From positions 34,616,109 to 34,680,108 of the forward strand of contig CAIIXF020000002.1 of NCBI GenBank assembly GCA_903813345.2: a stretch of 64,000 nucleotides of DNA, written 5' to 3'. Below are positions 1 to 52,141 of this stretch, one piece after another (the stretch's first letter is position 1; every line of letters starts with the position of its first letter). Made by a program: the position numbers and the translations under genes. Origin of the DNA: Owenia fusiformis. Lineage: Eukaryota; Annelida; Polychaeta; Sabellida; Oweniidae. The notes below the pieces were generated by a model. The model saw only the letters and a program-made list of their open reading frames with translations, was not told the DNA's origin and did no database searches.

Positions 1-67
1 TATGATTTTATGTTTTGTGCTACTTGGATGTGTTTACCACCAGCTGGCCTCCAATTGAATCTGTGAA
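1..67 (-). CDS. Alternative terminal exon, 5' part only (linker), cut by window edge
   Basis: The minus strand has a polypyrimidine tract ending in tttccag directly before position 67. Reading on in phase 1 gives the linker V-H-R-F-N-W-R-P-A-G-G-K-H-I-Q-V, which matches the linker style of the finger exons at 4698 and 2292. The reading frame stays open to the window edge, so the zinc fingers must lie outside. It is inferred to be one more alternative C-terminus of the multi-exon zinc-finger locus and shows that the array continues past position 1. Confidence 0.65.
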
Positions 68-2029
68 CTGGAAACAGAAAAAATACTTTAAAAAATTGAA
101 TTGATAAAGTAAAACACCATGGTTTATAACTGGATAATACATTTAACTGTCAATAGACAGTTAGTAGAGTAAAATTGTGAAGTGGAACATCCCTGTAAGT
201 CAAACACCTCTGTAAGTGGAACATTTCTCAAGTGGAACACAATCCTAGAGGTACCACATATGTTCCACTTGCACAGCAGGTTTCACTGTACCCAAATCTT
301 GAAAAGCATTAATTATAGGTATTAATGTAATTGGTTAGAGTGACACATGCTTTAGGGATGGTGACATATACAGGGTGGCCCAAAAGTATATTCACAGCTT
401 ATAATTGGTCAGAGTGACACATGTTTTAGGGATGGTGAAATATACAGGGTGGCCCAAAAGTATATTCACAGTTTATAATTGGTCAGAGTGACACATGCTT
501 TGGGGATGGTAAAATATACAGGGTGGCCCAAAAGTATATTCACAGTTTATAATTGGTCAGAGTGACACATGTTTTAGGGATGGTGAAATATACAGGGTGG
601 CCCAAAAGTATATTCACAGTTTATAATTGGTCAGAGTGACACATGCTTTGGGGATGGTGAAATATACAGGGTGGCCCAAAAGTATATTCACAGTTTATAG
701 ATTGTAGAATAGCTGTAAACCTATTTTTGGCCAAGTCAGTGTTGTTTTTCTTAAAACTGTGATTCTATGAATTCAGGTATTTGAACCTTGATATGGTAGA
801 AAGTGTTTTTCTTCCTTGCATGCTGCAATACTTAATTGGATTGTTAAAGACTGATTGATATTAAAGATAGGATGTTTTTTTCATTTTTGAATGCTGGAAT
901 AGTTTTTAAATATTGGAACAGTTGAAATAGTTTTTCTTGTGCTTCATTGTTGAATGTAATGATGATAAAAGTTGAATAACTGAAAATGTATCTCTTCCAA
1001 CATAGAATGACCCCAGGCTAATATACCAATTGAACAGCTTTTATGTCATTCCTAAGCACATTTTCTTTATTTCTATTTTTAAAAGATTACAGGAGTATTT
1101 TATTTAATTACAAAGATATACTAAAGCATACAACATAGTTAAAAATCAATTAATTTCAATCAAAATCAAAAAGTGTTTTTCATATTTTTGCTTTATTTGC
1201 AATTCTTAAAACCTCTTATATTAAAAATAAAATACACAGCGATAGATCACACTTTTATTGCAAAATTCAAAAAAAAAACTTATCAGTTCTTGACATGAGT
1301 CTGCTCTTAGGTCTGTAAAAATATCTCAAGTTGAACAGATCAGTTGATTTCTTGGAATTTTAATGACGACATTTATGTGGCAAATACCTGCTCACCTAGC
1401 AGTACAAAACAACAGTAAGACGAAAATATACAAAATTTCACCACCTGCCATTTGTTACAGACACTGAACTCCAACTGCAAAACACTGTCCACAAAAATGT
1501 TGGAGACCTATGGTGGTTATATAACAACTATTGCACAGTATTTACAATTACTATATAATGCAGTCCCAACACTACCATTATCTGATTTAGTAAGCAGCAT
1601 TGGGCCCATGCATGGTATTATATTAATGAAATAATTATAACAATATAATAAATCAACTATATACAGTATAAAGTCCTTATAGACTATAACAGGGTACTGA
1701 GCTCCCAAAATAAAGTTTGATCTCTATCGAGTTTTTGTAAAAATAAAAACTGTCAAAATGAACACCTCTTTAAGTGGAATACTTCCCTTATTGGTACACC
1801 TCTTTAAGCGGAACACCTTCCTAAGACTTCACAGCCTCCTGAACAAAGGCTCTATGTTAAATGAAAGAACATCTCTCGAGTAAATAAGGTGTTCTACCTA
1901 TACAGGTTTTACTGTTCTTTTAAACATAAAATTGTTTACTTGTAAGAGTTTTAATATATAACTGAGTAACATTTGTAAACAATTTAATTATGTAATTACA
2001 ATACACTTTCATATTTTCTTAGTACATCC
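68..2029. other. Inter-exon region, AT-rich, no coding exon seen
   Basis: Apart from the 74-bp tandem array at 327-699, this stretch holds short fragments of a dispersed motif resembling aagtggaacacctc (about 170-290 and 1750-1920), also seen near 22820-22890. No finger motif or splice-competent exon was recognised. The short open frames here look like chance. Confidence 0.5.
327..699. repeat. Tandem repeat, 74-bp unit, five copies
   Basis: The word tgacacatg recurs at 341, 415, 489, 563 and 637, exactly 74 bp apart. Each unit contains cagggtggcccaaaagta, which resembles the end of a mariner-type DNA transposon. The copies differ by only a few bases (ttagggatgg versus ttggggatgg), which suggests recent expansion. 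Confidence 0.9.
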
Positions 2030-2292
2030 TCAATAATCAAATTTCTTATGAACTGATTTTATATGCCTGTCCATGTGATCTTTACGTCCAAATTTCTTTA
2101 AACAGATATCACATTTAAAACGTTTTTCCCCAGTATGTACAACTCTATGTTTTTGAAGATCTTGTAATCTTTTGAATGTTTTTAGACAAATGTTACATTC
2201 ATATTTCCTTTCCTTATGGAACTTGTATGCTTCAATGTTTTTCGTCACTTGTAAGTGTTCACCACTTGCCAGAATCAAACTGAATCTACCAT
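2030..2292 (-). CDS. Alternative C-terminal exon: 2 C2H2 zinc fingers
   Basis: The exon starts after the acceptor tttttgctttcag and enters in phase 1. The linker begins D-G-R-F-S-L-I-L-A and is followed by two classical C-x2-C-x12-H-x3/4-H fingers joined by a TGEKRFKC linker, then the stop at 2032-2030. Length 263; with the one base from the shared exon it gives 88 codons including the stop. No start codon precedes the fingers in the exon. It is a close paralogue of the exon at 3297. Fingers of this type normally bind DNA in the nucleus; the target is unknown. Confidence 0.85.
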
Positions 2293-2851
2293 CTGAAAGC
2301 AAAAACAATACTTGAAAAAGGATTTAAAACATTATACTATTGTTTTTAACTTATTGGTTTGTGAGGAGACAACAAACAAACAGGAAGAAAGCCAAGACCA
2401 AAAACATGCAAGGAAATAATGAAAGGTCTATTCAATCTGACCATAACATATTCAAGGGCAATAAAAAGAATGAGTCTCAAGTGATTATGCTTTGCAAAAA
2501 TCAATTGTATATTTGTTCAGTGAAAGTTTCATTTTGAGAGAGAAGGTGAATCATGGCATATCCTATGTCAAATTTACCTTACTATGCCAATAATACGCCC
2601 ACTATATAAAATACCATATTCTCTTTAAAGAGTGCACTCCTAAAATTTTAAAACATGGGAATAGATAAATATTAGAAAATTCAAACGACCAAAGGAGTAA
2701 AATTCTCTGTTGCTCAGGTCAGTGTATTTTCAGTTTTCCTGAGACTTTACTCATCATAGGAAGTGGCCTGTGCACTCTTTTGGGAGAATATGCTAAGTTA
2801 ATCCAGGATGCCCATATTACCTTTCTAGTTTAACCTTGAAATCTTCACAAT
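2293..2851. other. Intronic spacer, nothing recognised
   Basis: AT-rich sequence between two paralogous finger exons. The stretch next to the exon at 2292 resembles the stretch next to the exon at 3297, which fits a local tandem duplication that carried flanking intron. No gene, RNA or clear repeat was recognised. Confidence 0.4.
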
Positions 2852-3297
2852 TTAGGATTTCTTATCAGGATCCTTATGCTTTGATTTTTTATGCTGATCA
2901 ACATGATGCTTCCGTGAGAATGTTCTTAAACAGATTTCACATTTGAATGGTTTCTCTCCAGTATGTGTCCTTCTATGGTTTTCAAGATGTTCAGATCTTT
3001 TAAATGATTTCAGACAAGTGTTACATTTGTAATTCCTTTTCTCAGTTTTTTTATGAAATGATTTTATGTGTCTATCCATGTGATCTTTATGTCCAAATTT
3101 CTTGAAACAAATATCACATTTAAAATGTTTTTCTCCTGTATGTACAACTCCATGTTTTTGAACTTCTTGTAATCTTTTGAATTTTTTAAGACAAACATTA
3201 CATTCATATTTCCTTTTCTTATATTTCTTTTTCGTTTCAATGTTTTTCGTAACTTGGATGCATTCACCTGTTGCCAAGATCAAGCTGAATCTGCCAT
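2852..3297 (-). CDS. Alternative C-terminal exon: 4 C2H2 zinc fingers
   Basis: The acceptor is tttttgctttcag; phase-1 entry; length 446 (149 codons with the donated base). The linker D-G-R-F-S-L-I-L-A-T-G-E is nearly that of the 2292 exon. Four fingers follow in two pairs, each pair joined by a TGEK linker, and the two pairs are separated by a longer K-K-T-E-K-R-N linker. The first pair is the paralogue of the two fingers in the 2292 exon; the second pair has the F-S-R-K-H-H style also found in the exon at 4698. It ends in a lysine-rich tail. An independent gene is unlikely because no start codon or promoter-proximal exon lies between it and its neighbour. Confidence 0.86.
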
Positions 3298-4438: not shown

Positions 4439-4698
4439 TTAATCAAAATCCCTATGTACTGTTCTTTTATGCTGGTCTCGGTGATGCTTTCTCGAGAATG
4501 TTTTTAAGCAGATTTCACAACTAAAAGGTCTCTCCCCAGTATGTGTCCTTTTATGGTTTTGAAGATGATCAGATTTTTTAAATGATTTCAGGCAAATGTT
4601 ACACTCATGCTTCCTCTCAGCGTTTTTCTTATATGATTTTAATTGATTTGTGACTCCAATTTGTTGACCATCGGCAAGCCTCCAGTGGAATCCAAAAA
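4439..4698 (-). CDS. Alternative C-terminal exon: 2 C2H2 zinc fingers (no internal Met)
   Basis: A conventional ATG-based ORF search misses this exon because it has no methionine. The acceptor gttttttgttttccag precedes 4698; phase-1 entry gives the linker V-F-G-F-H-W-R-L-A-D-G-Q-Q-I-G-V. Two fingers follow (C-N-I-C-L-K-S-F...H-K-R-T-H and C-E-I-C-L-K-T-F...H-K-R-T-V-H) joined by T-G-E-R-P-F, with a stop at 4441-4439. Length 260, which stays in frame. The lack of any Met is strong evidence that it is expressed only by splicing to upstream exons. Confidence 0.85.
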
Positions 4699-6730: not shown

Positions 6731-6987
6731 TCAGAGTTTCCTGGTCTTATGAATGACTTCTTTGTGTTTATTCAAGTGCTGTCTTTGTCTAAATGTCCTG
6801 TGGCAGATTCCACATCTAAATGGTCTCTCGCCAGTATGGATCCTTCTATGATCTCCAAGATGTTGGGATGTTTTGAATGATTTTAGGCAAAGATCACATT
6901 CATAACGCCTCGCTGCACTTTTCTTAAATGATTTGAAATCTTCGTGAGAATCCTGGGTCTTATGCAGTGTCCAGTTTAATCGATCAA
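6731..6987 (-). CDS. Alternative C-terminal exon: 2 C2H2 zinc fingers
   Basis: The acceptor ctttttattttcag precedes 6987; phase 1. The linker V-D-R-L-N-W-T-L-H-K-T is a member of the VDxxNWxLPQT family that dominates 2-22 kb, and is followed by a lysine-rich K-S-F-K-K-S-A-A-R-R stretch. Two fingers joined by T-G-E-R-P-F end in H-K-T-R-K-L and a stop. Length 257 (86 codons with the donated base). The methionine upstream in the same frame lies before the acceptor and is intronic. Confidence 0.87.
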
Positions 6988-8501: not shown

Positions 8502-8800
8502 TCATTGATAACCATATTTGGGCATTGTCAATTGGGAGCCAGCAGAAGTTATCCAAATCTTATGAATGTTTTCTTTATGTTTATACAGGTGATGCCTTAG
8601 TCTAAATGTCTTTTGGCAAATTTCACATCCATACGGCTTCTCCCCAGTATGAATCATGCTATGACTTTTAAGGTGGCTGGACTTTTTGAATGATTTCAGG
8701 CAAATATTACATTCATAACGCCTTTCTGCACTTTTCCTATATGATTTCAACCAACTTTCTTGAGAATATGTCTGAGGAAGCGTCCAATTTGAAACATCAA
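8502..8800 (-). CDS. Alternative C-terminal exon: 2 C2H2 zinc fingers
   Basis: The acceptor cactttttattttcag precedes 8800; phase 1; length 299 (100 codons with the donated base). The linker V-D-V-S-N-W-T-L-P-Q-T leads through K-S-Y-R-K-S-A-E-R-R into two fingers joined by TGEKPYGC. The tail after the last histidine is longer than in its neighbours (N-I-H-K-I-W-I-T-S-A-G-S-Q-L). The second finger is close to those at 9730 and 11224 (C-E-I-C-Q/K-K-T-F-R-L/Q-R/K-H-H-L), so these three exons form a recent local subfamily. Confidence 0.87.
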
Positions 8801-9729: not shown

Positions 9730-9986
9730 TTATAGTTTTCCAATGTTATGATGAACGAGTACTTTGTGTCTATTCAGATGATGTTTAAGTCTAAATGTCT
9801 TTTTGCAGATTTCACATCCATGGGGTTTCTCTCCAGTATGGATCATGCTATGATCACTAAGGTATCGGGACTTCTGGAATGTTTTCAGGCAAACATTACA
9901 TTCAAAAGGTCTCTCTGCGCTTTTCTTCAACTGTTTCAAAACTGGAGGATCTTGGCTCCCTTGCAGCATCAAATTTGATCTGCCAA
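9730..9986 (-). CDS. Alternative C-terminal exon: 2 C2H2 zinc fingers
   Basis: The acceptor cttttttgttttcag precedes 9986; phase 1; length 257. The linker V-G-R-S-N-L-M-L-Q-G-S-Q departs from the VDxSNWxLPQT consensus at the tryptophan. Two fingers (C-N-V-C-L-K-T-F-Q...H-S-M-I-H and C-E-I-C-K-K-T-F-R...H-K-V-L-V-H) joined by TGEKPHGC end in H-H-N-I-G-K-L and a stop. Confidence 0.87.
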
Positions 9987-11223: not shown

Positions 11224-11483
11224 CTAAAGTTTCCCAATCTTGTGAATGAGTACTTTGTGTCTATACAGGTGGTGTCTTTGTCTAAATGTCTTTTTGCAGA
11301 TTTCACATCCATATGGTTTTTCTCCAGTGTGAATCATTTTATGATCTGCAAGGTGATGGGACTTTTTGAATGATCTCAGGCATATGTCACATTCAAAAGG
11401 CCTTTTTGCACTTTTCTTATATAATTTCACTGAATCTTCTTCAAAATCCTGGGTCTGAGGTAGCATCCAATTTGATTGATTAT
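11224..11483 (-). CDS. Alternative C-terminal exon: 2 C2H2 zinc fingers
   Basis: The acceptor atattttatattttcag precedes 11483; phase-1 entry gives D-N-Q-S-N-W-M-L-P-Q-T-Q-D, shared with the eight-finger exon at 21061. Two fingers joined by TGEKPYGC end in H-K-I-G-K-L. Length 260, in frame with the shared exons. Confidence 0.87.
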
Positions 11484-13779: not shown

Positions 13780-14300
13780 ATGTATCTCATTTTAAGACAT
13801 TTTTGGAATTGTAAAGTGAACAAACTAAGTTTTTTTGTAAACATTGGTTCAAACTTTAGGTATTTTTTTCTATTTTCTGTCATCTTAAATATTGACCTGT
13901 CTATAATAAGTTCCCTTGTCAACTGCCTTAGAATAGTTCCTTGGTCAATAAATGACTAGTCAACTGGCTTATGAACTGATCGTTTGTGTCTATCTAAGTT
14001 ATGTTTCAATCGGAATGTCTTAAAGCAAATAGGGCAGATGAATGACTTCTCTCCAGTATGGATCCCTCGATGATATTCTAAGTGGTGTGGCTTTTTGAAT
14101 GATTTCAGACAAATGTTACATTTGTGTTTTCTTGCTGCATCCTGGTCAAATGGGGATGATTTGTTTTTAAACTGAATATTTCCACCACCAGTTGGAATCC
14201 AATTGAAAGTGTTAACTGGAAATAGAAAATATATTTGAAAATGTTACAAATGCATAAAATATAGTAAAATGGATTAACAGCATTTTTTGGTGAACTGACA
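13780..14300. repeat. Segmental duplication, copy 1 (partner 18745-19260)
   Basis: The non-coding tail from tgtatctcattttaagacat through gactagtcaactg, the finger exon and part of its upstream intron match 18745-19260 with few differences. Both copies keep identical exon length. It is a recent intralocus duplication of a terminal exon with its 3' UTR and acceptor. Confidence 0.88.
13956..14215 (-). CDS. Alternative C-terminal exon: 2 C2H2 zinc fingers (twin of 19181)
   Basis: The acceptor atattttctatttccag precedes 14215; phase-1 entry gives V-N-T-F-N-W-I-P-T-G-G-G-N-I-Q-F. Two fingers (C-N-I-C-L-K-S-F-K-K-P-H-H-L and C-P-I-C-F-K-T-F-R-L-K-H-N-L) are joined by TGEKSFIC and end H-K-P-V-D-stop at 13958-13956. 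It lacks an internal Met. It is 260 nt, the same as its twin at 19181-18922; the proteins differ at a handful of positions (for example H versus Q in the first finger helix), so the two could differ in DNA preference. Confidence 0.86.
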
Positions 14301-16917: not shown

Positions 16918-17519
16918 CTATTGATCCTTTATATTTGAATGGACTGATAATACATGCTTTTTCAAGTTGCTTTTTGACCTACATGATTTGGGACAATGAG
17001 CACAATGATATGGTCTCTCGCCAGTATGGATCATTCTATGTTCTGCAAGGTGACTGGAGCTTTTGAATGATTTCGGGCAAACATTACATTCAAAACGCGC
17101 ACTGCTATGCACTATTTTCAAATGATTTTTCAGCTGGTGATTCAATGCAAATGTTTCCCCACATTGTCCACACAGATGGTTTTTCTCTCCAGTATGAATC
17201 TTTGAGTGTCTCTCTAAATCTTGTGGCGAACTGAACTGTTTGTGGCAAAAATCACACATATGATCCTTTATATTTGAATGCACTGCTAATACATGCTTTT
17301 TCAAGTTGCTTTTTGACCTGCATGATTTGGGACATTGAGCACAATGATATGGTCTCTCCCCAGTATGGATCATTCTATGTTCTGCAAGGTGACTGGAGAC
17401 TTTGAATGATTTCAGGCAAACGTTACATTCAAAAGGCCTTTCTGCACTTTTCTTAAATGATTTCAGCAAATCTTCATGAGAATTCTTAGTCTGAGGAAGC
17501 AGCCAATATGAACCATCAA
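16918..17519 (-). CDS. Alternative C-terminal exon: 6 C2H2 zinc fingers, truncated
   Basis: The acceptor tatactttttttttgttttcag precedes 17519; phase-1 entry gives V-D-G-S-Y-W-L-L-P-Q-T-K-N. Six fingers follow: C-N-V-C-L-K-S-F, C-A-Q-C-P-K-S-C, C-D-F-C-H-K-Q-F, C-G-Q-C-G-E-T-F, C-N-V-C-P-K-S-F, C-A-H-C-P-K-S-C. Fingers 5-6 repeat fingers 1-2, so the exon grew by duplicating a four-finger module. It ends S-N-I-K-D-Q-stop exactly where the paralogous exon at 21061 continues into another finger. Length 602, in frame. Confidence 0.86.
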
Positions 17520-18125: not shown

Positions 18126-18388
18126 CTAATGATCCTTTGTATTTGAATGTGTTGATATCAAATGCTTTTTCAAATTGCTCTTTGTCCTAAATGATTTGGG
18201 ACAATGACCACAATTATATGGTTTCTCGCCAGTGTGAATCATTCTATGATCACCAAGATGACAGGACTTTTTGAAAGATCTCAGGCAAATGTTACATTGA
18301 AAACGCCTTTCTGCACTTTTCTTAAATGATTTCAGCATATCTTCTTGAGAATTCTTTGTCTGAGGAAACGTCTGATTTGATCCATCAA
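18126..18388 (-). CDS. Alternative C-terminal exon: 2 C2H2 zinc fingers, truncated
   Basis: The acceptor cactttttgttttcag precedes 18388; phase-1 entry gives V-D-G-S-N-Q-T-F-P-Q-T-K-N. Two fingers (C-N-I-C-L-R-S-F-K-K-S-C-H-L and C-G-H-C-P-K-S-F-R-T-K-S-N-L) are joined by TGEKPYNC and end in S-N-T-K-D-H-stop. The stop falls at the same linker position as in the exon at 17519. Length 263, in frame. Confidence 0.86.
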
Positions 18389-18744: not shown

Positions 18745-19260
18745 CATGTATCTCATTTTAAGACATTTTTGGAATTGTAAAGTGAACAAACTAAGTTTTT
18801 TTGTAAACATTGGTTCAAACTTTAGGTATTTTTTTCTATTTTCTGTCATCTTAAATATTGACCTGTCTATAATAAGTTCCCTTGTCAACTGCCTTAGAAT
18901 AGTTCCTTGGTCAAAAAATGACTAGTCAACTGTCTTATGAACTGATCTTTTGTGTCTATCTAAGTTATGTTTCAATCGGAATGTCTTAAAGCAAATAGGG
19001 CAGATGAATGACTTCTCTCCAGTATGGATCCCTCTATGGTATTCCAAGTGTTGTGGCTTTTTGAATGATTTTAGACAAATGTTACATTTGTGTTTCCTTG
19101 CTGCATCCATGTCAAATGGGGATGATTTGTTTTTAAACTGAATTTTTCCACCACCAGTTGGAATCCAATTGAATGTGTTAACTGGAAATAAAAATAAATA
19201 TTTGAAATATTTGAAAATATAACAGATGCATGAAACACAATAAAATGGATTCTCAACTTT
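18745..19260. repeat. Segmental duplication, copy 2 (partner 13780-14300)
   Basis: Near-identical to 13780-14300 across the 3' flank, the finger exon and the start of the upstream intron. The two copies are about 5 kb apart in direct orientation. Confidence 0.88.
18922..19181 (-). CDS. Alternative C-terminal exon: 2 C2H2 zinc fingers (twin of 14215)
   Basis: The acceptor tttatttttatttccag precedes 19181; phase-1 entry gives V-N-T-F-N-W-I-P-T-G-G-G-K-I-Q-F. Two fingers joined by TGEKSFIC end H-K-T-V-D-stop (18924-18922). Length 260. It is the duplicate of the exon at 14215. Both copies keep open frames and a strong acceptor, so both are probably functional. Confidence 0.87.
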
Positions 19261-20249: not shown

Positions 20250-21061
20250 TTACATCAATGTTTCATTCTCATAGTTAACATTTTCATGTGCTTTCAAATG
20301 TTTTTTCAGCTGGTGATTTAAAGTAAACATTTTCCCACATTGTCCACACTTTAGGTTCTTCTCTTTATTATGAACCTTTAAATGTCTTTCCAAAGACTGT
20401 GCAAGACTGAATTGTTTATAGCAGAATTCACAAATATGTTCCTTTATATTTGAATGTGCTGATATTAAGTGCACTTTCAATGTGTTCTTTGCCCTAAACG
20501 ACCTGGGACATTGATCACAATTAAATGGTTTTTCTCCAGTGTGTATCATTTTATGATCCTTGAGGTGACAAGACTTTTTGAATAATTTCTGACAAATATT
20601 ACATTCAAAACGCACACAGCCGTGCACTACTTTCAAATGTTGTTTCAGCTGGTGACTAAATGCAAAACTTTCCCCACATTCCTCACACTCGTGGTTTTTG
20701 TCTCCAGTATGGAACTCGTTATCTTTCTCTTTAATATGTTTCTCCAAATGTCTCTCTAAAGCCTGTGGGAGGTTAAACTTTTTGTTGCAAAAATCACATA
20801 CATGCTCCTTTGTATTTTGATGTACTGATATAATATGCACTTTCACATTGTTTTTTGTCCTAAAGGATCTGGGACAATAATCACAATTGAATGGTTTCTC
20901 TCCAGTATGGATCATTCTATGGCCGCTAAGGTGACTGGGTTTTTTGAATGATTTCAGGCAAATATTACATTCAAATGGCCTTTCTGCACTTTTTTTAAAT
21001 GATTTTTTCAAATTTTCTTGAGAATCCTGAGTCTGAGGCAGCGTCCAATTTGATTGATTAT
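20250..21061 (-). CDS. Alternative C-terminal exon: 8 C2H2 zinc fingers
   Basis: The acceptor tatactttttattatttattttcag precedes 21061; phase-1 entry gives D-N-Q-S-N-W-T-L-P-Q-T. Eight fingers form two copies of a four-finger module: C-N-I-C, C-D-Y-C, C-D-F-C, C-E-E-C, then C-N-I-C, C-D-Q-C, C-E-F-C, C-G-Q-C. A charged linker (H-I-K-E-K-D-N-E-F) separates fingers 3 and 4. Length 812 (271 codons with the donated base). It is the intact form of the module that is truncated in the exons at 17519 and 18388. Confidence 0.9.
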
Positions 21062-22007: not shown

Positions 22008-22273
22008 CTAATTTTGTTTCTTGCTCATTCTATGGGTTTTGTAGTGTCTATCCCGATGATGTTTCCGTGAAAATCTTTTAGAGCAAATATCACAGCTGTA
22101 TGGTCTCTCTCCAGTATGCATCCTTCGGTGATAATTAAGATGAGATGATTTTTTGAATGATTTCAGACAAATGTTACATTCATATTTCCTCTCCACATTT
22201 TTCTTGAATGATTTACTGTTTTGAGTAACTAGAATTTGCTCCCCATTGGCCAGCTTCACATGATAAATTGGAT
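22008..22273 (-). CDS. Alternative C-terminal exon: 2 C2H2 zinc fingers
   Basis: The acceptor gttcatttttgttttcag precedes 22273; phase-1 entry gives D-P-I-Y-H-V-K-L-A-N-G-E-Q-I-L-V-T. Two fingers (C-N-I-C-L-K-S-F-K-K-S-S-H-L and C-D-I-C-S-K-R-F-S-R-K-H-H-R) are joined by TGERPYSC; the tail is basic. The linker is of the LANGEQ/LADGQQ type seen at 4698 and 3297, although those lie more than 17 kb away, so this subfamily is dispersed. Confidence 0.87.
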
Positions 22274-22994: not shown

Positions 22995-24328
22995 TTACTT
23001 ATTGTCTACATTTGTGTGATTTGCCTTCAAATGTTTTTTCAAATTGTTATCTAATGTGAACATTTTTCCACAATGTACACACTGGTGGTTTTTATCTCCA
23101 GTATGGATCTTCAAATGTCTTTCTAAAGTTTGTGGCAAGTTGAACCGTCTGTCACAGAAATCACACATATACTCCTTCATATTTGAATGTGTTGATTTTA
23201 AATGCACTTTCAATATGCTCTTGGACCTAAAGGATTTGGGGCATTGATTGCATTTGATTGGTTTCTCGCCAGTATGAATCAGAGAATGTTGTACCAATTG
23301 ATGTGACCTCACAAAGGCCTTTGGGCAATGTGCACATTTAAAAGGCCTTTCTCCTAGATGGACTTGTTGTTGGTGCTTTGTTAAGTAATAATTCTGGGCA
23401 AAACTTTTGGGGCACAAAGTACATTTAAATGGTCTTTCTCCAGTATGTGTGCGTAAATGGACTACCAACAAGCGCTCTCGATTAAATTGCTTTGGACAAT
23501 AATCACATATGAACTCTTTTTTCCTTTTTTGGTTTTTTAATCGATTCACCATTGCTGTGTATTTTGAATGCTCATCTCCATCAATAGTTTGTTCTCCATC
23601 AAGTTCTAATTCTGCTTCTAAATTGTCTGCTTCAATATTAGCTACAGCAATGTCTGTCTCATCGCCAGAATCCTTTGTCTCAATGATTTGAGTAGGTTGG
23701 AGTTTTTTTTCTCTAGTATGGATCTTCAAATGTTTTGTTAAAGATGAACGCAAGCTGAACTGCTTGTCACAGAAATCACACATATGCTCCTTTACATTTG
23801 AATGAGTTGATAATAAATGCACTTTCAAGGTGCTCTTTGACCTAAATGATTTGGGACATTGATCACAAATAAACGGTTTCTCGCCAGTATGAATCATAGA
23901 ATGTTGTACCAATTGATGGGACCTCACAAAGGCTTTTGGGCAATCTACACACTTGAATGGTTTTTTTCCTAGATGGACTTGTTGTTGGTGCTTTGTTAAG
24001 TAATAATTCTGAGCAAAACTTTTCGGACACAGAGCACATTTAAATGGTTTTTCTCCAGTATGTGTACGTAAATGGATTACCAACAAGCACTCATGATGAA
24101 ATTGCTTTTCACAATATTCACATATTAATTCCTTCTGCTCCTTTGGATTTTTCAATCGTTTCACCATAGCCATGTATTTTAAATGCTCATCCCCATCATT
24201 GGTTTGTTCCTCAAGTTCTGCTCCTCCATTGTCTGCTTCAACTTCTGTCTCCTCATCAGAATCCCCTGCATCTATGTAACGTGTTGGTATAGCTTTCTTG
24301 CTTCTGTTGGATCTACGAACCTGTTTCA
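22995..24328 (-). CDS. Alternative C-terminal exon: 11 C2H2 zinc fingers in two duplicated blocks
   Basis: The acceptor cgatatttttcag precedes 24328; phase-1 entry gives V-K-Q-V-R-R-S-N-R-S-K-K. An acidic segment (D-S-D-E-E-T-E-V-E-A-D) and five fingers are followed by a second acidic segment (D-S-G-D-E-T-D-I-A-V) and six fingers. The blocks align finger for finger: C-E-Y-C/C-D-Y-C, C-A-L-C/C-T-L-C with identical N-Y-Y-L-T-K-H helices, C-V-D-C/C-A-H-C, C-D-Q-C/C-N-Q-C, C-D-F-C/C-D-F-C, plus a final C-V-H-C. Length 1334, in frame. It is the longest exon of the array. Confidence 0.9.
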
Positions 24329-25230: not shown

Positions 25231-26321
25231 TTATGTTTGAGAGGTGGCTAATATTTCTTTGTGGATATCCTCATCCCCATGGAATTTCTTTAAGTGGTTT
25301 TGTAGTGAAGAGTTTCTTGTGAATTTTATCAAGCAAAATTGACATTTAAATGGTTTCTCTCCAGTGTGAGTCATTAAATGCCTTGTTAGTCCACCTTTCC
25401 ACCCAAAGCTTTGTTCACAGACTTCACATTGAAAAGGCCTCTCCAGTGTATGAGCTGACCTTATATGTCTATTCAGATGTTTTATTCCTACAAATTTTTC
25501 AGAGCAATAATCACACATGTAATTCTTCTCTTCAACATGAATAATCCTATGTGACCCTAATGAACCCCTACTGGCAAAGACCTTTGAACATACTTCACAT
25601 TTATGTGGCTTCTCCCCAGTATGGATTCTAATATGAACAATCATATCTCTTTGTGTTCGAAATTCTTTAGAGCAATATTCACATTGAAATGGGCGGATAT
25701 CAGAATGTGTTTTCACATGTGAATTATAATTACCCAATTGTGCAAATGCCTTTGGGCAAAGTTCACATTTATACAGTTTCTCGCCAGTATGGACTAGCAT
25801 ATGGGATTTCAAATGATGCAAAAGTTTGAACCGTTTTGAACATTCTTCACACTGAAACTTCCTTTCAGCTTTAGCACACTGCAACTTCCTATCAGGTCTA
25901 TGAGTTACCATATGTTTAGTAAGATGGCCCTTTTCAATAAATGTTTTGGGACACTGTTCACATTTAAAAGAACGTTCTCCAGTATGAATCCTCATATGCC
26001 TTGTCAAACCTTTTTTTTCACAGAAAGTTTTATTACATACTGAGCACCTAAGTAACCCAATCTTTGTATGTAATTTGATATGTACTTTCATTTCGTATTT
26101 CCTATTAAAACATTTAGAGCAGTGTTTACACACATATGGCTTTTGTCCCGGGTGCATTTTGATAAGATGAATATTCAGTTTGTTTTCACGTCTGAAAACA
26201 TCACCACATATTTTACAAGGGTATTCAACATCATCATCGCCGTATGACTCAATCATTTGTCTCCCTTTAGTGTGCTTCCTTTCGACTCTGTTCCTCTTAG
26301 TGTGGGGCATTCCTTGCTCAA
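25231..26321 (-). CDS. Alternative C-terminal exon: 11 C2H2 zinc fingers
   Basis: The acceptor ccattctgttttcag precedes 26321; phase-1 entry gives V-E-Q-G-M-P-H-T-K-R-N-R-V-E-R-K-H. Eleven fingers follow in one run: C-K-I-C, C-K-H-C, C-S-V-C, C-E-Q-C, C-E-E-C, C-E-L-C, C-E-Y-C, C-E-V-C, C-D-Y-C, C-E-V-C, C-Q-F-C; most are joined by TGE(K/R) linkers, with a longer linker between fingers 4 and 5. Length 1091 (364 codons with the donated base). The first five or six fingers match the exon at 27508. Confidence 0.9.
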
Positions 26322-26990: not shown

Positions 26991-27508
26991 CTACTTGTTC
27001 ATAACTACCATCTCATTGTGTGTTTTCATATGTACATTATAATTGCCCAATAGTGCAAATGCCTTTGGGCAATGTTCACATTTGTGTGGTTTCTCGCCAG
27101 TATGGACTAGCATATGGGCATTCAAATGATGCAAATCTTTGAACTGTTTTGGACATTCTGCACACTGAAACACTCCGTCATCAGTTCTATGAAATACCAT
27201 ATGTTTAGTTAGATTGCCCTTTTCATTGAATGTTTTTGGGCACTGTTCACATTTAAAAGGATCTCTGGTATGTATCCTCTCATGGCGTGCCATGTTGTAT
27301 TTCCTATTAAAACATTTAGAGCAGTGTTTACACATATATGGCGTTTGTCCTTGGTGCATTTTGATAATATGCATATTCAGTTTGTTTTCACGGATGAAAA
27401 CCTCACCACATATTTTACAAGGGTAGTCAGCATCATCATCACCATATGACTCAAAAGATTGTCTCCCTTTAGTGTGTTTTCTTTTAGCTCTACTCCTTCC
27501 ATGATCAA
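26991..27508 (-). CDS. Alternative C-terminal exon: 5 C2H2 zinc fingers
   Basis: The acceptor agtttatttttttcag precedes 27508; phase-1 entry gives V-D-H-G-R-S-R-A-K-R-K-H-T-K-G-R-Q. Five fingers: C-K-I-C, C-K-H-C, C-E-Q-C, C-A-E-C, C-E-H-C. It parallels the exon at 26321 but lacks the counterpart of that exon's third finger and everything after the sixth. The tail is N-E-M-V-V-M-N-K. Length 518, in frame. Confidence 0.89.
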
Positions 27509-28333: not shown

Positions 28334-28623
28334 TCAAGCATTCTTATTCAATGTACTGGGAGAAATCTTGTGAACTCCTTTACAATGTTTTCTCAAAGTC
28401 TGAGATTGATTGAATGACTTCAAGCAGAGATGACATTTGAATGGTTTTTCTCCAGTATGGATCCTCATATGATTTTTATAGTTTGTTGAGACTTTGAATC
28501 TCTTTTGGCAGATCTCACAATGGAACTTGTAGTGTTGATTCATCTGTTGATTGTCTTGTGGATTGTAATATGGACTAGGTAAATACTCATTGTTAATATC
28601 CACGATCTTATTGTGGGACACTT
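28334..28623 (-). CDS. Alternative C-terminal exon: 2 C2H2 zinc fingers
   Basis: The acceptor atgttttgtcattttcag precedes 28623; phase-1 entry gives E-V-S-H-N-K-I-V-D-I-N-N-E-Y-L. Two fingers ([14 protein letters not shown] and C-H-L-C-L-K-S-F-N-Q-S-Q-T-L) are joined by TGEKPFKC. This opens the DINNxYL linker family (28-33 kb). Length 290, in frame. Confidence 0.87.
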
Positions 28624-29624: not shown

Positions 29625-29917
29625 TTATCTATTTATTTTATGAACACTTTTACAATGAGTTCTTAACCCCTGAGGTTGGCGAAATGCTTTAAGACACATT
29701 TCACATTTAAATGGCTTTTCTCCAGTATGGATCCTCATATGATTTTTATAGTTTGTTGAAACTTTGAATCTTTTGTTGCATATTTCACAATGGAACTTGT
29801 AACTGGGATCAACTGCTGTATTGTCAAATCCAGGTGGTATGAAGTCCTGGGGGTTGTAATGATATGGAGTTGTCATATATTTGTTGTTGATGTCCATCAC
29901 CTTGTTGTGGATCATTT
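29625..29917 (-). CDS. Alternative C-terminal exon: 2 C2H2 zinc fingers
   Basis: The acceptor cttttcatttccag precedes 29917; phase-1 entry gives [15 protein letters not shown]. Two fingers ([14 protein letters not shown] and [14 protein letters not shown]) are joined by TGEKPFKC. The first methionine of the open frame is inside the linker, just after the acceptor. Length 293, in frame. Confidence 0.87.
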
Positions 29918-30892: not shown

Positions 30893-31167
30893 TTATGAAA
30901 TGTGTATTTTCTTGTGATGGGTCAGTGTTGATCGCTGCGTAAATGATTTATGACAAATTTCACACTGGAAAGGTTTTTCACCAGTGTGGATCCTAACATG
31001 ATCTTTATAGTGCGATGACTTTTTGAATCTTTTCTGGCACATTTCACATTGGAACTTATAGGTGAGTCTTGTCTTGTCAAATCTAGATGAAAGGGTGTCC
31101 AGGGGCTCGTCATATTGGGTGGTCAAATATCTGTTGTTGATATCCATCACGCTGTATTGCATCATTT
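30893..31167 (-). CDS. Alternative C-terminal exon: 2 C2H2 zinc fingers
   Basis: The acceptor cttctgatttccag precedes 31167; phase-1 entry gives E-M-M-Q-Y-S-V-M-D-I-N-N-R-Y-L. Two fingers (C-E-M-C-Q-K-R-F-K-K-S-S-H-Y and C-E-I-C-H-K-S-F-T-Q-R-S-T-L) are joined by TGEKPFQC; the frame stops four residues after the last zinc histidine region. Length 275, in frame. Confidence 0.87.
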
Positions 31168-32441: not shown

Positions 32442-32743
32442 CTAATTCAAAGTACTGGGGGATATTTTATGTACATCTTTACAATGCCTTCTCATTGTCT
32501 GAGATTGTTTGAATAACTTCAGACAAATGTTACATTGGAAAGGCTTTTCACCAGTATGGATCCTAATATGGTCTTTAAGGTGTGATGCTCTTTTAAATCT
32601 CTTGTTGCATGATTCACAGTAGAACTTGTAACTGCAATCAGCTGTTGTCTTGTCAAATCCATGTAGTATGTTGTTCTGAGTTTTGTAATATGAAGAATTC
32701 AAATACTTGTTATCACTATGCCTCACACCAGTGTGCATCATTT
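32442..32743 (-). CDS. Alternative C-terminal exon: 2 C2H2 zinc fingers
   Basis: The acceptor cttttcattttcag precedes 32743; phase-1 entry gives [15 protein letters not shown]. Two fingers ([14 protein letters not shown] and [14 protein letters not shown]) are joined by TGEKPFQC and end H-K-I-S-P-S-T-L-N, the same tail as the exon at 28623. Length 302, in frame. Confidence 0.87.
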
Positions 32744-33790: not shown

Positions 33791-34020
33791 TTAGTGTTTT
33801 TCATGTGATTTCCTATGACGCTGTAGATGACCTGATTGTTTAAATCTCTTCAGGCAAAGTTCACATTGGAACGGTTTCTCCCCAGTATGGACTCTCATAT
33901 GGTTCCTGTAGTTTATTGTAACTGTGAACTCTTTGCTGCATATAGTACAATATAGATAACTGGCTGTAGCCTTCTTGTGGACTGGCTGAAATATTTTCTG
34001 CATTTTGTGTGTCATCTCAT
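33791..34020 (-). CDS. Alternative C-terminal exon: 2 C2H2 zinc fingers
   Basis: The acceptor ttcctcattggttccag precedes 34020 and is weaker in pyrimidines than most in the array. Phase-1 entry gives [17 protein letters not shown]. Two fingers ([14 protein letters not shown] and [14 protein letters not shown]) are joined by TGEKPFQC; the stop follows H-E-K-H. Length 230, in frame. Confidence 0.82.
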
Positions 34021-34823: not shown

Positions 34824-35044
34824 TCAAGAGTATTTCTCGTGTGTTTTGGCATGAGTTGTAAGGTGTCCAAGCTGTTTAAACTTCTTCAGACAAAGTTTAC
34901 ATTGAAAAGGTTTCTCGCCAGTATGGATCCTCATGTGATTGTTTAGATTTGTTGTTTTGGTGAATGCTTTATTACATTCAGTACACCTGAACACTCTCAC
35001 TGGACGAACATCCATTCTTGTGTTTTCCATGTTTGGATACCTCA
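34824..35044 (-). CDS. Alternative C-terminal exon: 2 C2H2 zinc fingers (paralogue of recombinase exon 1)
   Basis: The acceptor gttttattttgtgattccag precedes 35044; phase-1 entry gives V-R-Y-P-N-M-E-N-T-R-M-D-V-R-P-V-R-V. Two fingers (C-T-E-C-N-K-A-F-T-K-T-T-N-L and C-K-L-C-L-K-K-F-K-Q-L-G-H-L) are joined by TGEKPFQC; stop after H-E-K-Y-S. Length 221, in frame. The linker and at least 150 bp of upstream intron match those of the exon at 38237, which leads to a recombinase domain instead of fingers. Confidence 0.88.
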
Positions 35045-38237: not shown

Positions 38238-38925
38238 CTGGAATCACAAAAAACAACATCATATAATTTCTAAAAACTAGAACATTGTTTTTGTTTCCTC
38301 AAAATATACTGCCTTATCTTATCTATGCAAAGAACTTTACATGGATTGGTATTGTTTTAATTACAACTTATCTAAGATTATTAATTAATTAAGTGTTATT
38401 CCAAGCAGTTCATTATCAAACATGATCAAAATGAAAGTAGATAACTAAACTTCATGTAATTCCAAAGAAATGTTCTTGTCTTAATCAACAAAAAACTGAA
38501 TGTTTTAATTGAAAATAACAATCATTTTCTTGTCAGTAACATTCTATGCATAGTATCAATTGTAAAAAGGAGTTATAATCAATAAAGCACAAGAACATTT
38601 ATTTCACTTATATCAACTTATATTATATACAGGCATTATCTGCCCGATTATCTGACCTACTTTTTAATTGGTCAAGAGGAGAAATTTTTCCGTGGCAAAT
38701 CTAGTTTCATTTCGTTCAGTATGCATACTTATATAAGCCCAGGGTATTAAACAAATCCTTGTTTTGAAGCGAACAATCTTTTCTCAAAAAGATATCTCAC
38801 TGATTCATAATTATTAAACTTGGTTTAAAGTAAACATGACTGTTCACTTCAGAATGTATGAAATAAATTCAACAATTGATAAGACAGAGAAATTTGCAAG
38901 TTGTGTATTGATGGTGCAATGGAAC
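38238..38925. other. Intron upstream of the recombinase exons
   Basis: The first ~170 bp are homologous to 35045-35205. The remainder is AT-rich and leads into the 30-bp satellite. No exon was recognised. Confidence 0.5.
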
Positions 38926-42885: not shown

Positions 42886-43589
42886 CTAGTATTTATCAAA
42901 ACTATTGTCATGCATATTTGTTTTATGTTTTCTTAAATTAGACAAATTACTGAAATTTTTGTCACACATGTCGCAATTAAACTTTGGTTTGTTGCTGTTA
43001 TGAATCATAACATGTTCTTTTAGGTATCTTTTTTGCTTGAATTGTTTATCGCAGAATAAACACCCATACATTTTCTTTTGTTTATTCTCAGGGCATATTT
43101 TCTGGTGGTTACACCGAGATGCTTGCCAAGCAAACGGTTTATCGCAATATTTACATCTGTAATGTTGGGCGGAGTCATGTGTGATCATATGAGCTTTGTA
43201 GTGTGATTTAATTTGGAACTTTTTTGGCGTTTCACATATCGTACATACAAATTCAGATTCAGAGTCTGCCGCATTATGCCGTATCTTTATATGCGTTCGT
43301 AATCCACTCACACTTCCAAATTTCTTTCCGCATTGTTCACAAACTGATTTTACATTGCTATGTTTAAATCTTTGATGCTGTTTCAGGTTGTATTTATTAC
43401 AATAAGATTTCCCACACAATTGACAATTGTATTTTTCCGTTTGTTGATGAAGTTTCATGTGGCGAGCCAGATTGAATCCGAGTTCTGTTTCATATGAACA
43501 TAATTGGCACTTTTTAATACTAGGAGCAGATTGTTTCTTTTGGGTACTTCTGCTTGAGATGGTGTGTGCTTGTTGTAAAGTGTTATCCT
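42886..43589 (-). CDS. Alternative C-terminal exon: 7 zinc fingers of a second type
   Basis: The acceptor attatcttttcaatttcag precedes 43589; phase-1 entry gives E-D-N-T-L-Q-Q-A-H-T-I-S-S. Seven finger units follow, not joined by TGEKP linkers: C-Q-L-C-S-Y, C-Q-L-C-G-K, C-E-Q-C-G-K, C-T-I-C-E-T-P-K-K (longer loop), C-K-Y-C-D-K-P-F-A-W (ends H-x3-C), C-L-F-C-D-K, C-D-M-C-D-K. The frame is 704 nt with 235 codons after joining. The fifth unit is C2HC and the fourth has an expanded loop, both shared with the exon at 45507, so this is a distinct subfamily, closest to the shared exons. Confidence 0.88.
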
Positions 43590-43984: not shown

Positions 43985-44880
43985 TTTAACAAATAAAGAT
44001 TGTTCTTATCCTTATGCACTTATTTGTTATTATCCTTATGCACTCCTTCATATTATGCTTATGGACTCGTTCCTTATTATCCTTATGCACTTGTCCCTTT
44101 ATTCTTAATGCACTTGTTCCTTCTGTCTTTTTAAATCAGAATTGCTGCTGGTCTTCGGTATAACAGTTTTGGAGTTTAATAACGAAACAGAAAATAGAGA
44201 AGTGATGAATATTTATTACATTTCTCTCTTTTTAAGTCAGTTTATTCGGACTAAAGCAACCCCAGAACCCTACTATGAAGCATGAAGGGATTTTATAAAT
44301 ATTTAAGAATCTAGAAACATCACGCTTCACCAGATCTTTGGTAACATCTTACATCAATGTACATAAAATATATGGAATGTGTCTCCTTAATTGATGAATC
44401 TTAGGTGGTAGCCATTTTGAATCACAATATGCTACAGTTGTTCTAACTTGTATTATAACCACATTCAGAGTTTAAGATGGGTGGTAGCAGTCAGAAAGTC
44501 ATCTAACTGTATCATTATCCCTATCCTTATGCACTCATCATTTTATTCCTTATGCATGTGTCCCTTTTATCCTTATACACTTGTTCATTTATTCCTTATG
44601 TACACTGTACTTGTCCTATCCTTATGTAAGCACTTGTCCCTTGGTAAAATCTTCCCTTTATTCATTAGGCACTTGTTCCTTTTATTCTCATGCACTCATC
44701 CTTTATTCCATATATACAGTGTACTTGTCCTATTCTTATGTATGCACTTGTTACCCTTTATTCCTAATACATTTGTTCCTCATTCCTTATGCACTTGTTC
44801 TTTATTATCCTTATGCACTTGTTCCTTATTATCCTTATGCACTTTTTTATGTCTTCTTAAATTAGAATTGTTGCTGAAGC
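43985..44880. repeat. 24-bp minisatellite and duplicated flank between two paralogous exons
   Basis: Units around ttatccttatgcacttgttcc recur near 44000-44110 and 44510-44850, with flanking words gggtggtagcagtca and aagtcatct repeated in both blocks. The right block runs into the coding end of the exon at 44780. Both blocks lie 3' (transcript sense) of a finger exon, so they were duplicated with the exon. Confidence 0.8.
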
Positions 44881-45507
44881 TTTTGCCACATACGCTACAG
44901 ATAATTTTTGTTTTATTTCCATTATGAAACTCTGCATGTTCCATCAGGTATTTCCTACAAGTGAATTGTTTGTCGCAGAAAAAACATCCAAATATCTTCG
45001 TTTGTTTGTTCTCTTTGCATATTTTTTCATGATGACTCCGCGTTCCAGCCCATGAAAATGTTTTCTCACAATATTTACACTTGTGGTGTTTAGTGGTGTC
45101 GTGCATTACCATATGTGCATCATAAGTTGTCTTGAATACAAATTTTTTTGGCACGTCACATATCGTGCACACATATTTAGCTTCTCTCTGTTCATGTTTC
45201 AACGCAACATGTCTCTGTAACCCACTCGCACTTGTGAATTCTTTCTCACATTGGTCACACTTAACTTTTCCTCCACAATGCTTAAATTTGTGATGTTCAC
45301 TCAGTCTATATTTATCGGCATAACTTTTTCCACATATGTGGCAATTATATCTTCTCGTCTGCTGGTGCAGCTGCATATGACGAGTCAAATTATATGTGAT
45401 ATTTGTCGTATAAGAACAATGATGGCACTTTTTCATACTTGTGTCACATGGTTTCTTTGGTGTGCTATCATCTGTGATGGTGTTTGAGTGTTCCAAAGAT
45501 TTTGGTT
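44780..45507 (-). CDS. Alternative C-terminal exon: 7 zinc fingers with repeat-encoded tail
   Basis: The acceptor tcttttctatttcag precedes 45507; phase-1 entry gives E-P-K-S-L-E-H-S-N-T-I-T-D-D. Seven units parallel the 43589 exon: C-H-H-C-S-Y, C-H-I-C-G-K, C-D-Q-C-E-K, C-T-I-C-D-V-P-K-K, C-K-Y-C-E-K-T-F-S-W (C2HC), C-F-F-C-D-K, C-S-V-C-G-K. After the last finger the frame runs into a 24-bp minisatellite, giving the repeated tail V-H-K-D-N-K-E-Q, then stops. Length 728, in frame. The nearest alternative exon to the shared N-terminus. Confidence 0.89.
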
Positions 45508-48262: not shown

Positions 48263-48267
48263 TCTAA

Positions 48268-49690: not shown

Positions 49691-50320
49691 AACAACCAGA
49701 GTTTATGACGAAGCATTCACAAAGAATGAATTTTCAACTGGGAACAAATAGATTTTCAACAACTGGGTAGAAATGGATTTTCAAGTGGTAACAAATGATT
49801 TTCAACTGGAAACAAATGGATTTTCAAATGTGAGCAAATGGATTTTCAACTGGGAGCAAACATATTTTCAACCCAGGGTACAAATAGATTTTCAAATGTG
49901 AACAAATGGATTTCAACTTAACTGGGAGCAAACAGATTTTCAACTGAGAGCAAATAGATTTTCAACTGAGGAAAATGGATTTTCAGCTGGAAGCAAATGG
50001 ATTTTCAACTGGGAGCAAATGGATTTTCAACTGGATACAAATAAATTTTTAACTGGGAGTGATTAGATTTTCAACTAGGAACAAATAGATTTTCAAATGG
50101 GAACAAGTAGATTTTCAAGCAAAAAGGGGATTTTCAACTGGGAGCAAATGGATTTTCACCTGGATACAAATAAATTTTCAACTGGGAGCAAATGAATTTT
50201 CAACTGGGTACAAGTAGATTTTCAAATGGGAACAAGTAGATTTTCAAGCAAAAATTGGATTTTCAACTGGGAGCAAATGAATTTCCAACTGGGTACAAAT
50301 AGATTTTTCTATTAACTGTG
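49690..50320. repeat. Degenerate ~22-bp minisatellite (gattttcaactgggagcaaatg)
   Basis: About 25 imperfect copies of a 20-23 bp unit around ggattttcaactgggagcaa. Unit length varies, so no open frame is maintained. It lies in the intron just downstream of the last shared exon. Confidence 0.85.
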
Positions 50321-51039: not shown

Positions 51040-51351
51040 CTGTATTCTGATCTGCTTGATTATTAGCTGAAGTATCTAATGTGTCGTCTCCCATCCAGCT
51101 CGCTCCCGCAGTTGAATCTTCATCATAACCCCCTCCCCCATCCTCTTCCTCATCATCATCATCCCCTAGTTCAATAGTTATAGGTTCTTCTTTTTCTTGT
51201 TTAATGTTTATATTGTCCATGTTTTGATTATCATTAGCACCGGGGGTTTGGTCAAGTTTGGGTTGTTTTTCTGTGGAATGTCCGGGAGTGTCTTGTTGCG
51301 TGTCTTCAGAGAGGGATCGTTTAATGCGTTTGGGGGAAGACGGAGGCTCTT
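51040..51351 (-). CDS. Shared exon B of the zinc-finger locus (NLS-like, SUMO-like, acidic)
   Basis: The acceptor gtatttaatgtccattttcag precedes 51351 and the donor AATACAG|gtgaata follows 51040. 312 nt carry phase 1 in and out. It encodes E-E-P-P-S-S-P-K-R-I-K-R (NLS-like), a polar stretch, I-K-Q-E-K-E-E-P (psi-K-x-E sumoylation-type motif) and an acidic run G-D-D-D-D-E-E-E-D followed by glycines. There is no finger. It ends ...Q-N-T plus one G, and every alternative acceptor supplies the two bases that complete that codon. Disordered regulatory segment between N-terminal block and DNA-binding tail; function is inferred. Confidence 0.87.
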
Positions 51352-51556
51352 CTGAAAATGGACATTAAATACACAGTTACTACAAGAATAAAGTAGAAGT
51401 GGAGACTTCATACTGACATTACTGTAAACACTGTATCAAATAAAATTCATATTATTATGATGCTTAAACTATTACATGTTGAATATAAAAAACTGATGAA
51501 CATATCTTTATTTATTTGTTTTAACATCTTAAAATTACGTATAATAAAAAAGTCAC

Positions 51557-52052
51557 CTTTTATTGTTAACCCTTCAGTTGCCACAACTACACCACCTGGG
51601 GTAACTTGAGTAGCAGTAGGCACAGGAGGGTTAATTTCAGTCCGTGAGTTGTACACATAAGGGCTGGCTGGATGAGTTGTAGTTGCAGATCTGTGAACAT
51701 TGTCTCTATTATTCATCTGTCTTTTCCTCTGTGTTGGAGTACTGTGAAGGGGTCTTTGGGGAAGTGTCTCGGGAAATGATTCGATTGCTTCATTACTTGG
51801 ATAATACGCAGATGATTGTTCATTTTCTGTTGACCAGTTTGTTGTTGTTTCGGGTGTTTCTTGTGAAATCATTGGTTTCATTATGGTCCTATGCATTTTT
51901 ACGACAATCTCTTTAGCTTCATCACCAGGAGATACACATATTATCCCATCGATCTCCAATGAACGATTGAACACAACATTTTGTGTGCATAGTTTCAACA
52001 CAGCATCTTGTATTAGTTGTGCGAGCATTGCATTTGTAGAACCCATTGTCAT
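51557..52052 (-). CDS. Shared exon A of the zinc-finger locus: start codon and N-terminal block
   Basis: The start codon at 52052-52050 follows an in-frame TAG at 52085-52083 and is followed by a second ATG two codons on; context gccATGaca is good. The donor is ATAAAAG|gtgact after 51557. 165 codons plus one base. Residues ~8-60 (L-A-Q-L-I-Q-D-A-V-L-K-L-C, F-N-R-S-L-E-I-D-G-I-I-C-V) look like a short helical then strand-like block; the rest is Ser/Thr/Pro/Asn-rich and probably disordered. I do not recognise it as BTB, KRAB or SCAN. It may be an oligomerisation or cofactor-binding domain, by analogy with other multi-terminus loci. Confidence 0.83.
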
Positions 52053-52141
52053 GGCAGTGGCCTTAAGGGGACTCTTCTTATTCTAAGTCACCTTTGATTT
52101 AGCAGGGCGAGCAAAGCAACAAGACTGCTGTGAGTTCTCAC
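52053..52141 (-). promoter_or_regulatory. 5' UTR part of shared exon A with upstream splice acceptor
   Basis: A polypyrimidine acceptor tttatgatttttag ends at 52142 (minus sense), so the exon probably starts at 52141 and is preceded by a non-coding 5' exon. In-frame TAG at 52085-52083 closes the frame upstream of the start codon. Confidence 0.6.

Follow-up and report, generated by a model that had tools for sequence, protein, structure and literature searches.

The organization of the locus

We analyzed a 64,000 nucleotide stretch of the genome of the annelid Owenia fusiformis (referred to below as ‘the window’; G000:C2:34616109-34680108, in an assembly of 498 Mb and 525 contigs). In this stretch, two exons encoding a predicted common N-terminus are followed on the same strand by a long series of exons encoding C2H2 zinc fingers, an arrangement that an initial annotation had likened to the Drosophila loci lola and mod(mdg4). 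The first of the two common exons begins with an uncharacterized domain of ∼58 residues, here termed the N-domain.

A scan of both strands of the window with the finger pattern C-x2-4-C-x12-H-x3-5-H returned 92 C2H2 fingers in 29 open reading frames (ORFs), every one of them on the minus strand and with no plus-strand match, in agreement with the earlier statement that all finger exons share one strand. The two minus-strand common exons, as first proposed, are also borne out: when joined, 52052-51557 and 51351-51040 encode 269 residues and are free of stops. The length of exon 2 is a multiple of 3, so that it could be skipped in frame.

Of the 29 finger ORFs, 24 qualify as intact terminal exons, matching the ∼24 originally described as possessing an acceptor and a stop. 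Each is preceded by a polypyrimidine-CAG acceptor that leaves two leading bases and thereby fits both common donors, and joining the common exons to them (with the phase preset) leaves the frame open in 24/24 cases, the sole stop being the exon's own. A single long protein assembled from all of the exons is ruled out, as every ending has its own stop. Two fingers are encoded by 16 of the 24 endings, and 4, 5, 6, 8 or 11 by the remainder. There is no methionine codon between the acceptor and the first finger in 11/24 endings, and 8/24 lack any in-frame ATG from the upstream in-frame stop to the first finger; these eight endings therefore depend on an upstream exon.

The features of the locus within the window are given below, all on the minus strand (-). 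Terminal exons were assigned by joining to the common exons, and their fingers were counted with the pattern given above.

51557..52052 (-), common exon 1, 496 nt; ∼58-aa uncharacterized N-terminal domain (MGSTNAML..MHRTIMKP) and linker; donor phase 1
51040..51351 (-), common exon 2, 312 nt; NIKQE / EPITIEL / acidic run / GASWM; donor phase 1
44780..45507 (-), terminal exon, 5 fingers
42886..43589 (-), terminal exon, 5 fingers
38237-38055, 37880-37196, 36785-36527 (-), three-exon alternative ending (predicted exons), in frame with the common exons
34824..35044 (-), terminal exon, 2 fingers; at least 38409-38204 duplicates its acceptor, its first codons and the intron before them
33791..34020 (-), terminal exon, 2 fingers
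32442..32743 (-), terminal exon, 2 fingers
30893..31167 (-), terminal exon, 2 fingers
29625..29917 (-), terminal exon, 2 fingers
28334..28623 (-), terminal exon, 2 fingers
26991..27508 (-), terminal exon, 5 fingers
25231..26321 (-), terminal exon, 11 fingers
22995..24328 (-), terminal exon, 11 fingers
22008..22273 (-), terminal exon, 2 fingers
20250..21061 (-), terminal exon, 8 fingers
18922..19181 (-), terminal exon, 2 fingers
18126..18388 (-), terminal exon, 2 fingers
16918..17519 (-), terminal exon, 6 fingers
13956..14215 (-), terminal exon, 2 fingers; best-scoring acceptor in another phase (3.8 vs 2.5)
11224..11483 (-), terminal exon, 2 fingers
9730..9986 (-), terminal exon, 2 fingers
8502..8800 (-), terminal exon, 2 fingers
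6731..6987 (-), terminal exon, 2 fingers
4439..4698 (-), terminal exon, 2 fingers
2852..3297 (-), terminal exon, 4 fingers
2030..2292 (-), terminal exon, 2 fingers
1..67 (-), 5' part of a 2-finger terminal exon that crosses the window edge; stop in stretch L005 at 9748
35637-35488, 33786-33619, 16917-16804, 15544-15227, 15203-15105 (-), relic or partial-duplicate finger ORFs

The array is not confined to positions 1-52141 of the window, as had been supposed, and instead continues for ∼14 kb beyond position 1 into stretches L005 and L006. These contain the edge-straddling exon, four exons with phase-1 acceptors, two short one-finger ORFs that resemble relics and, in L006, a single plus-strand match to the finger pattern that lacks an acceptor and appears fortuitous. 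Further stretches (L056 and L057) contain no finger match, which places the end of the array near C2:34602.2 kb. The whole locus spans ∼66 kb and comprises one recombinase-type ending and 29 finger endings, of which 24 lie in the window and five over or past its edge. The 24 finger exons of the initial annotation thus stand, while its list of endings for the window was incomplete, a 25th, non-finger ending lying at 38237-36527.

The N-terminal domain and its genomic copies

The N-terminus is not unique to this locus and has 45 clear copies in the genome. The exon-1 protein gave 57 genomic matches at E <= 10, of which 45 (E <= 4.8e-9) are the clear copies. None of the 45 contains an internal stop, and 40 of them lie on contig C2. 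Use of a divergent family member as the query returned nearly the same set (57 matches). Forty of the other 44 copies were read, and all possess a methionine near the expected start and an open domain. In an alignment of 35 N-domains (six of the 41 read sequences, L011, L012, L017, L022, L023 and L039, being excluded), residues M1, D33 and H52 never vary, and a further 14 columns stand at 90% or more.

Pfam gave no convincing match to the 267-aa common part (SOG2 at E 4.7) and, for the 35 N-domains, only unrelated and scattered families with a best E of 0.023. Membership in the BTB, KRAB and ZAD families was rejected, with no match to any of them in these same scans; the earlier description of the N-terminus as different from BTB is consistent with this result. 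A profile search of the PDB produced one chance match (E = 2), and a scan of viral contigs with the N-domain produced 92 pattern matches, of which none was confirmed. A single-sequence AlphaFold2 model of the window copy displays one helix and three strands, but with a mean pLDDT of 61.6 and a pTM of 0.40 it is too weak for a fold search. The N-domain is a candidate for a new zinc-finger-associated domain.

The copies on contig C2 are arranged non-randomly. Among 42 of them (the 40 clear copies plus those at 11634406 and 33050882, with the weaker C2 matches at 4535816, 8024872, 28637404, 33047026 and 33050630 excluded), seven neighboring pairs lie within 12 kb of each other, and 7/7 are divergent and head-to-head, 4–11 kb apart (for example C2 34397820-/34404625+, 32328756-/32333169+ and 10742755-/10747208+). 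Random placement yielded a mean of 0.14 divergent pairs and reached seven in 0/20,000 trials; when positions were fixed and strands shuffled, seven divergent pairs arose in 2/20,000 trials. This arrangement suggests that divergent N-domain pairs share promoter regions. The window copy lies outside any such pair.

Sister loci

Ten of the 45 N-domain copies, including that of the window, were opened as a non-random sample. Four of these (B, C, D and E, at ranks 5, 4, 7 and 3 by likeness to the window copy, itself rank 1) were chosen with finger matches nearby already known, and five more (F to J) were taken so as to cover distant and off-chromosome copies. The four close copies are as follows, where some of the finger ORFs counted are one-finger fragments or chance matches (such as that in C at 2746).

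B, 1374642 (-), 9 finger ORFs in 20 kb
C, 34404625 (+), 9 finger ORFs in 20 kb
D, 32328756 (-), 19 finger ORFs in 30 kb
E, 19797933 (-), 11 finger ORFs in 20 kb

All four of these copies head same-strand, mostly same-phase arrays. The finger ORFs lie on the strand of the N-domain, with one antisense match to the finger pattern in D (stretch L052) that resembles a chance occurrence. The NIKQE (NVKQE in D), EPITIEL, acidic-run and GASWM elements of exon 2 are conserved in all four loci and in stretch L002. Because close N-domain copies also head such arrays, these loci are, as judged from their sequences, a predicted family of lola-like loci with an unrelated N-terminus.

The copies chosen for distance are sparser. 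Single finger ORFs accompany F (contig C7, 20 kb) and H (C2, 10 kb), two are found beside G (C1, 10 kb) and I (C2, 20 kb), and none beside J (C6, 10 kb); each of these six ORFs has a best acceptor that leaves two leading bases. The C7 copy in stretch L058 heads one ORF with six fingers by the same pattern (20 kb read), and the C1 copy in stretch L060 heads two ORFs with one finger each (10 kb read). These off-chromosome C7 and C1 copies are candidates for an ancestral form of the gene with few endings. A likely history is that of a gene combining the N-domain and fingers, with one or few last exons, in which the last exon was tandemly duplicated in some of the C2 copies.

A shared splice phase

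The phase was preset when terminal exons were joined to the common exons, and a phase-blind test is therefore the fairer one. In that test the best-scoring acceptor of each finger ORF in the five loci (that of the window and B to E) was chosen regardless of phase, with a score cut-off of 3. This score was reached by 59/86 finger ORFs, and in 51 of those 59 the acceptor leaves two leading bases (23/26 in the window locus, 5/6 in B, 5/6 in C, 10/12 in D and 8/9 in E); tandem duplicates are not independent in this count, and the five loci agree. In a small control of finger-less ORFs, 6/37 reached the same score, two in each phase. The shared acceptor phase exceeds chance.

Relationships among the endings

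Kinship and selection were measured for the 69 of 86 finger ORFs whose best acceptor leaves two leading bases, a set that takes in two relic ORFs of the window locus and excludes exon 14215-13956. The nearest relative of an ending lies in its own locus in 55 of the 69 cases, as compared to a mean of 18.5 when shuffled, and 0/5000 shuffles reached 55. By locus, the corresponding counts are 28/30 in A (the window locus), 2/7 in B, 6/7 in C, 12/15 in D and 7/10 in E. When the genome was searched with one ending, the first 13 matches listed (self included) all fell in the window locus.

Within loci, 54 pairs of endings share at least 55% identity, and dN/dS is finite for 45 of them, with a median of 0.27 and no value above 1. 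By these comparisons the endings are under purifying selection, maintained as working fingers that differ from each other. The sets of DNA-contact residues are all distinct in the 30/30 ORFs of the window locus (two of which are relics), and 68 distinct sets occur among the 69 ORFs of the five loci. Because the contact sets differ in this manner, we infer that one gene could supply tens of DNA specificities.

One predicted gene with many alternative endings

We interpret the locus as one multi-terminus transcription-factor gene, with ∼30 alternative endings behind a common N-terminus, and place the probability of that interpretation at approximately 0.86. The pre-mRNA would start upstream of position 52052, from one promoter region. 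The common part that it encodes would begin with the unclassified ∼58-aa domain and a linker and continue with a SUMO-type motif (psi-K-x-E), a stretch of hydrophobic residues and an acidic tail. The phase-1 donor at the end of exon 2 (or, where exon 2 is passed over, that of exon 1) would then be joined to one of ∼30 same-strand endings, such that the splice junctions from the common exons to the endings are presumably used. The chosen ending, usually a single exon with two C2H2 fingers, would set the DNA specificity of the protein, and the shared N-terminus would set its partners and effect, with the N-domain perhaps self-associating or recruiting a cofactor. We regard the psi-K-x-E motif in exon 2 as a putative SUMO acceptor and the neighboring stretch as SUMO-binding-like; judging by motif alone, exon 2 might be SUMO-linked and repressive.

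Several observations weigh against this interpretation. Five of the ten opened N-domain copies have no array within the 10–20 kb read, and relics or partial duplicates account for 5/29 of the window's finger ORFs. In the phase-blind test, 8 of the 59 best acceptors in the five loci are in another phase, including that of exon 14215-13956 and those of two finger ORFs of the same locus that lie past the window. An in-frame ATG is present between the acceptor and the first finger in 13/24 endings, and anywhere back to the upstream stop in 16/24. The signal AATAAA occurs within 300 nt behind 10/24 endings, versus 9.33 at random. Finally, in 19 reciprocal-best pairs (with zinc ligands and core set apart), DNA-contact positions changed in 84/180 cases versus 188/419 at other non-structural finger positions (p = 0.72); directed diversification is therefore unsupported, since contact positions change no faster than other non-structural ones. 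An apparent selection for contact-position diversity in a pooled count (289/491 vs 709/2135) vanished in this 19-pair test. The pooled count was misleading because its comparison positions held zinc ligands and its pairs overlapped.

The means by which an ending would be chosen was considered in terms of docking and selector pairing. Among exact 10–12-mers, no complement is common to more than 2/25 endings, and such matches are fewer overall than at random positions. The exact complementarity of the Dscam type of choice is thus a feature that this locus does not share.

The endings could alternatively be transcribed from promoters of their own and trans-spliced to the common exons, as for part of mod(mdg4) in insects. 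Trans-splicing is described for mod(mdg4), and reported for lola (PMC4667647, PMC11426971), and a locus of ∼66 kb with internal promoters is compatible with the sequence. The endings in the window all lie on the strand of the common exons, however, such that cis-splicing suffices, and we regard this alternative as unlikely.

Equally doubtful, in our estimation, is the proposal that few endings are used and that the others are recent tandem duplicates in the course of decay. The five relic ORFs noted above would fit such a process, as would the evidence that duplication is recent in places (positions 33567-33909 consist of two 172-bp copies with 95% matches). Against it, the frame, acceptor and stop are intact in 24/24 non-relic endings, and none of the 45 measurable pairs has a dN/dS as high as 1. 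A chance cluster of ordinary zinc-finger genes, with their own promoters and 5' exons, behind an N-domain gene is very improbable: clusters of long finger ORFs do exist elsewhere in the genome (for example C2:24.1-24.26 Mb and C12:14.04 Mb), but the endings here keep one phase throughout, 8/24 lack an in-frame ATG, no finger lies on the opposite window strand and the plan is repeated behind four sister N-domain copies.

A recombinase-type ending

When joined to the common exons, the predicted ending at 38237-36527 gives a protein of 644 residues, in which Pfam identifies a QRICH1 domain (PF25561, E 8.9e-9) and a Phage_integrase domain (PF00589, E 8.7e-9), both above the cut-off. HCIR and GHRN...KHY motifs are present, which we take to be the catalytic-looking motifs of the predicted recombinase. 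The intron, acceptor and first codons of this ending (at least 38409-38204) duplicate the corresponding stretch of finger ending 35044-34824. From approximately 38180 onward the DNA instead matches three genomic copies (C2:401893, C9:8378792 and C237:8334), with 81–88% identity over the main blocks and 69–72% further 3'.

The simplest reading of this structure is that an element, which we presume to be Crypton-like, was joined behind a copied finger-ending acceptor, and would thereby have supplied a type of tail new to the locus. The ending is like QRICH1 and similar genes, which are presumably Crypton-derived, in combining QRICH1 and Phage_integrase domains. It is unlike them in that the element-like part is located behind a copied finger-ending acceptor within a putative multi-terminus locus.

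The copy at C2:401893 (+) lies ∼15 kb downstream of an N-domain copy at 387161 (+), on the same strand. A distant relative at C2:761516 (+), with 34% identity, lies ∼3 kb downstream of another N-domain copy at 758602 (+).

Other features of the window and genome

Within the array of endings, window positions 38920-41811 are occupied by a 30-bp tandem unit in 96 copies with 93% matches, which is open over nearly its full length in three frames, two on the minus strand and one on the plus strand. At 49720-50308, in the intron that follows exon 2, lies a diverged ∼22-bp tandem repeat of ∼26 copies (ATTTTCAACTGGGAACAAATAG); the exact 10-mer AGTTGAAAAT occurs 12 times in that repeat and nowhere else in the window. 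A LINE-like ORF of 1156 codons at 60016-63486 (-) has, by eye, apparent endonuclease and reverse-transcriptase parts.

Elsewhere in the genome, at least 8 finger matches in open frames of 218–237 codons lie on one strand over 35 kb at C8:12062849-12097620 (-). This may be a further array of exons, alternative or tandem; none of the 57 genomic N-domain matches (E <= 10) is located on C8. Genomic matches as a whole fall on contigs C1 to C12 and on a few of high number, suggesting twelve chromosomes, the number given for O. fusiformis (PMC9539403). The erythrocruorin-linker family PF16915, which is typical of annelids, gave three matches above its cut-off, one of them interrupted by a stop, and suggests an annelid. 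A search for COX1 gave no match, nor did one for the mollusc hemocyanin family, in which the control was also without a match.

Comparison with known systems

The likeness to lola that was originally proposed is upheld by the common exons, same-strand last exons, single phase, intact stops and purifying selection. For lola, 20 isoforms or more are described, the majority with two fingers (PMC5127561), and mod(mdg4) of Diptera and Lepidoptera has at least 31, with endings that are mostly FLYWCH and in some cases located on the opposite strand (PMC4667647). The TTK-type BTB domain, to which those of both lola and mod(mdg4) belong, is reported from arthropods only (PMC11426971).

Our locus resembles lola in its common N-terminal exons, its many alternative last exons and the two fingers in most of its endings. 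It differs in that the N-terminus of lola is a TTK-type BTB domain, whereas the N-domain has no convincing Pfam match, and also in possessing sister loci of the same plan and some endings with 4–11 fingers. With mod(mdg4) it shares the presence of ∼30 predicted endings on one N-terminus, and the initial suggestion that it rivals mod(mdg4) in their number is sustained (29 finger endings and one recombinase-type ending, versus at least 31, and above the minimum of 20 for lola). In architecture it matches both genes, but on the features compared (no BTB match, and no finger ending on the opposite window strand) it belongs to the family of neither. Unlike those of mod(mdg4), its finger endings are C2H2 and all on one window strand. 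No opposite-strand fingers were found in the window, C2H2 being the sole domain kind sought there, and a Pfam scan of five proteins contained no FLYWCH domain, although no search aimed at FLYWCH was made.

The KRAB-, ZAD- and SCAN-zinc-finger families are similar to the present one in pairing a lineage-expanded N-terminal domain with C2H2 fingers, in many copies on one chromosome. Those families usually have one N-terminus per finger array, whereas here one N-terminus faces many endings, and Pfam gave no KRAB, ZAD, SCAN or BTB match. To our knowledge, multi-terminus transcription-factor loci are known only from insects. Among the papers listed by searches of the open-licence literature, judged by title and the start of the abstract, none was recognized as a description of this locus, of its domain or of the plan outside insects.

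Significance of the locus

The chances appear to us evenly balanced that a non-arthropod lineage arrived at the lola plan on its own and went on to multiply it, giving at least five multi-terminus loci and a domain with 45 copies. The argument for an independent origin in this annelid is that the TTK-type BTB domain is reported only from arthropods (PMC11426971). A further case built on an unrelated N-terminal domain would demonstrate that the plan can evolve independently.

If this is true, hundreds of alternative DNA-binding endings would arise from a few dozen promoters, and a tandem duplication or even a recombinase gene could add an ending if it simply brought along an acceptor in phase 1. 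Sister loci, copies that have few endings and duplicates within loci would represent stages from which the growth of an array may be reconstructed. Gene models that retain a single isoform for each gene would overlook most of the DNA-binding repertoire.

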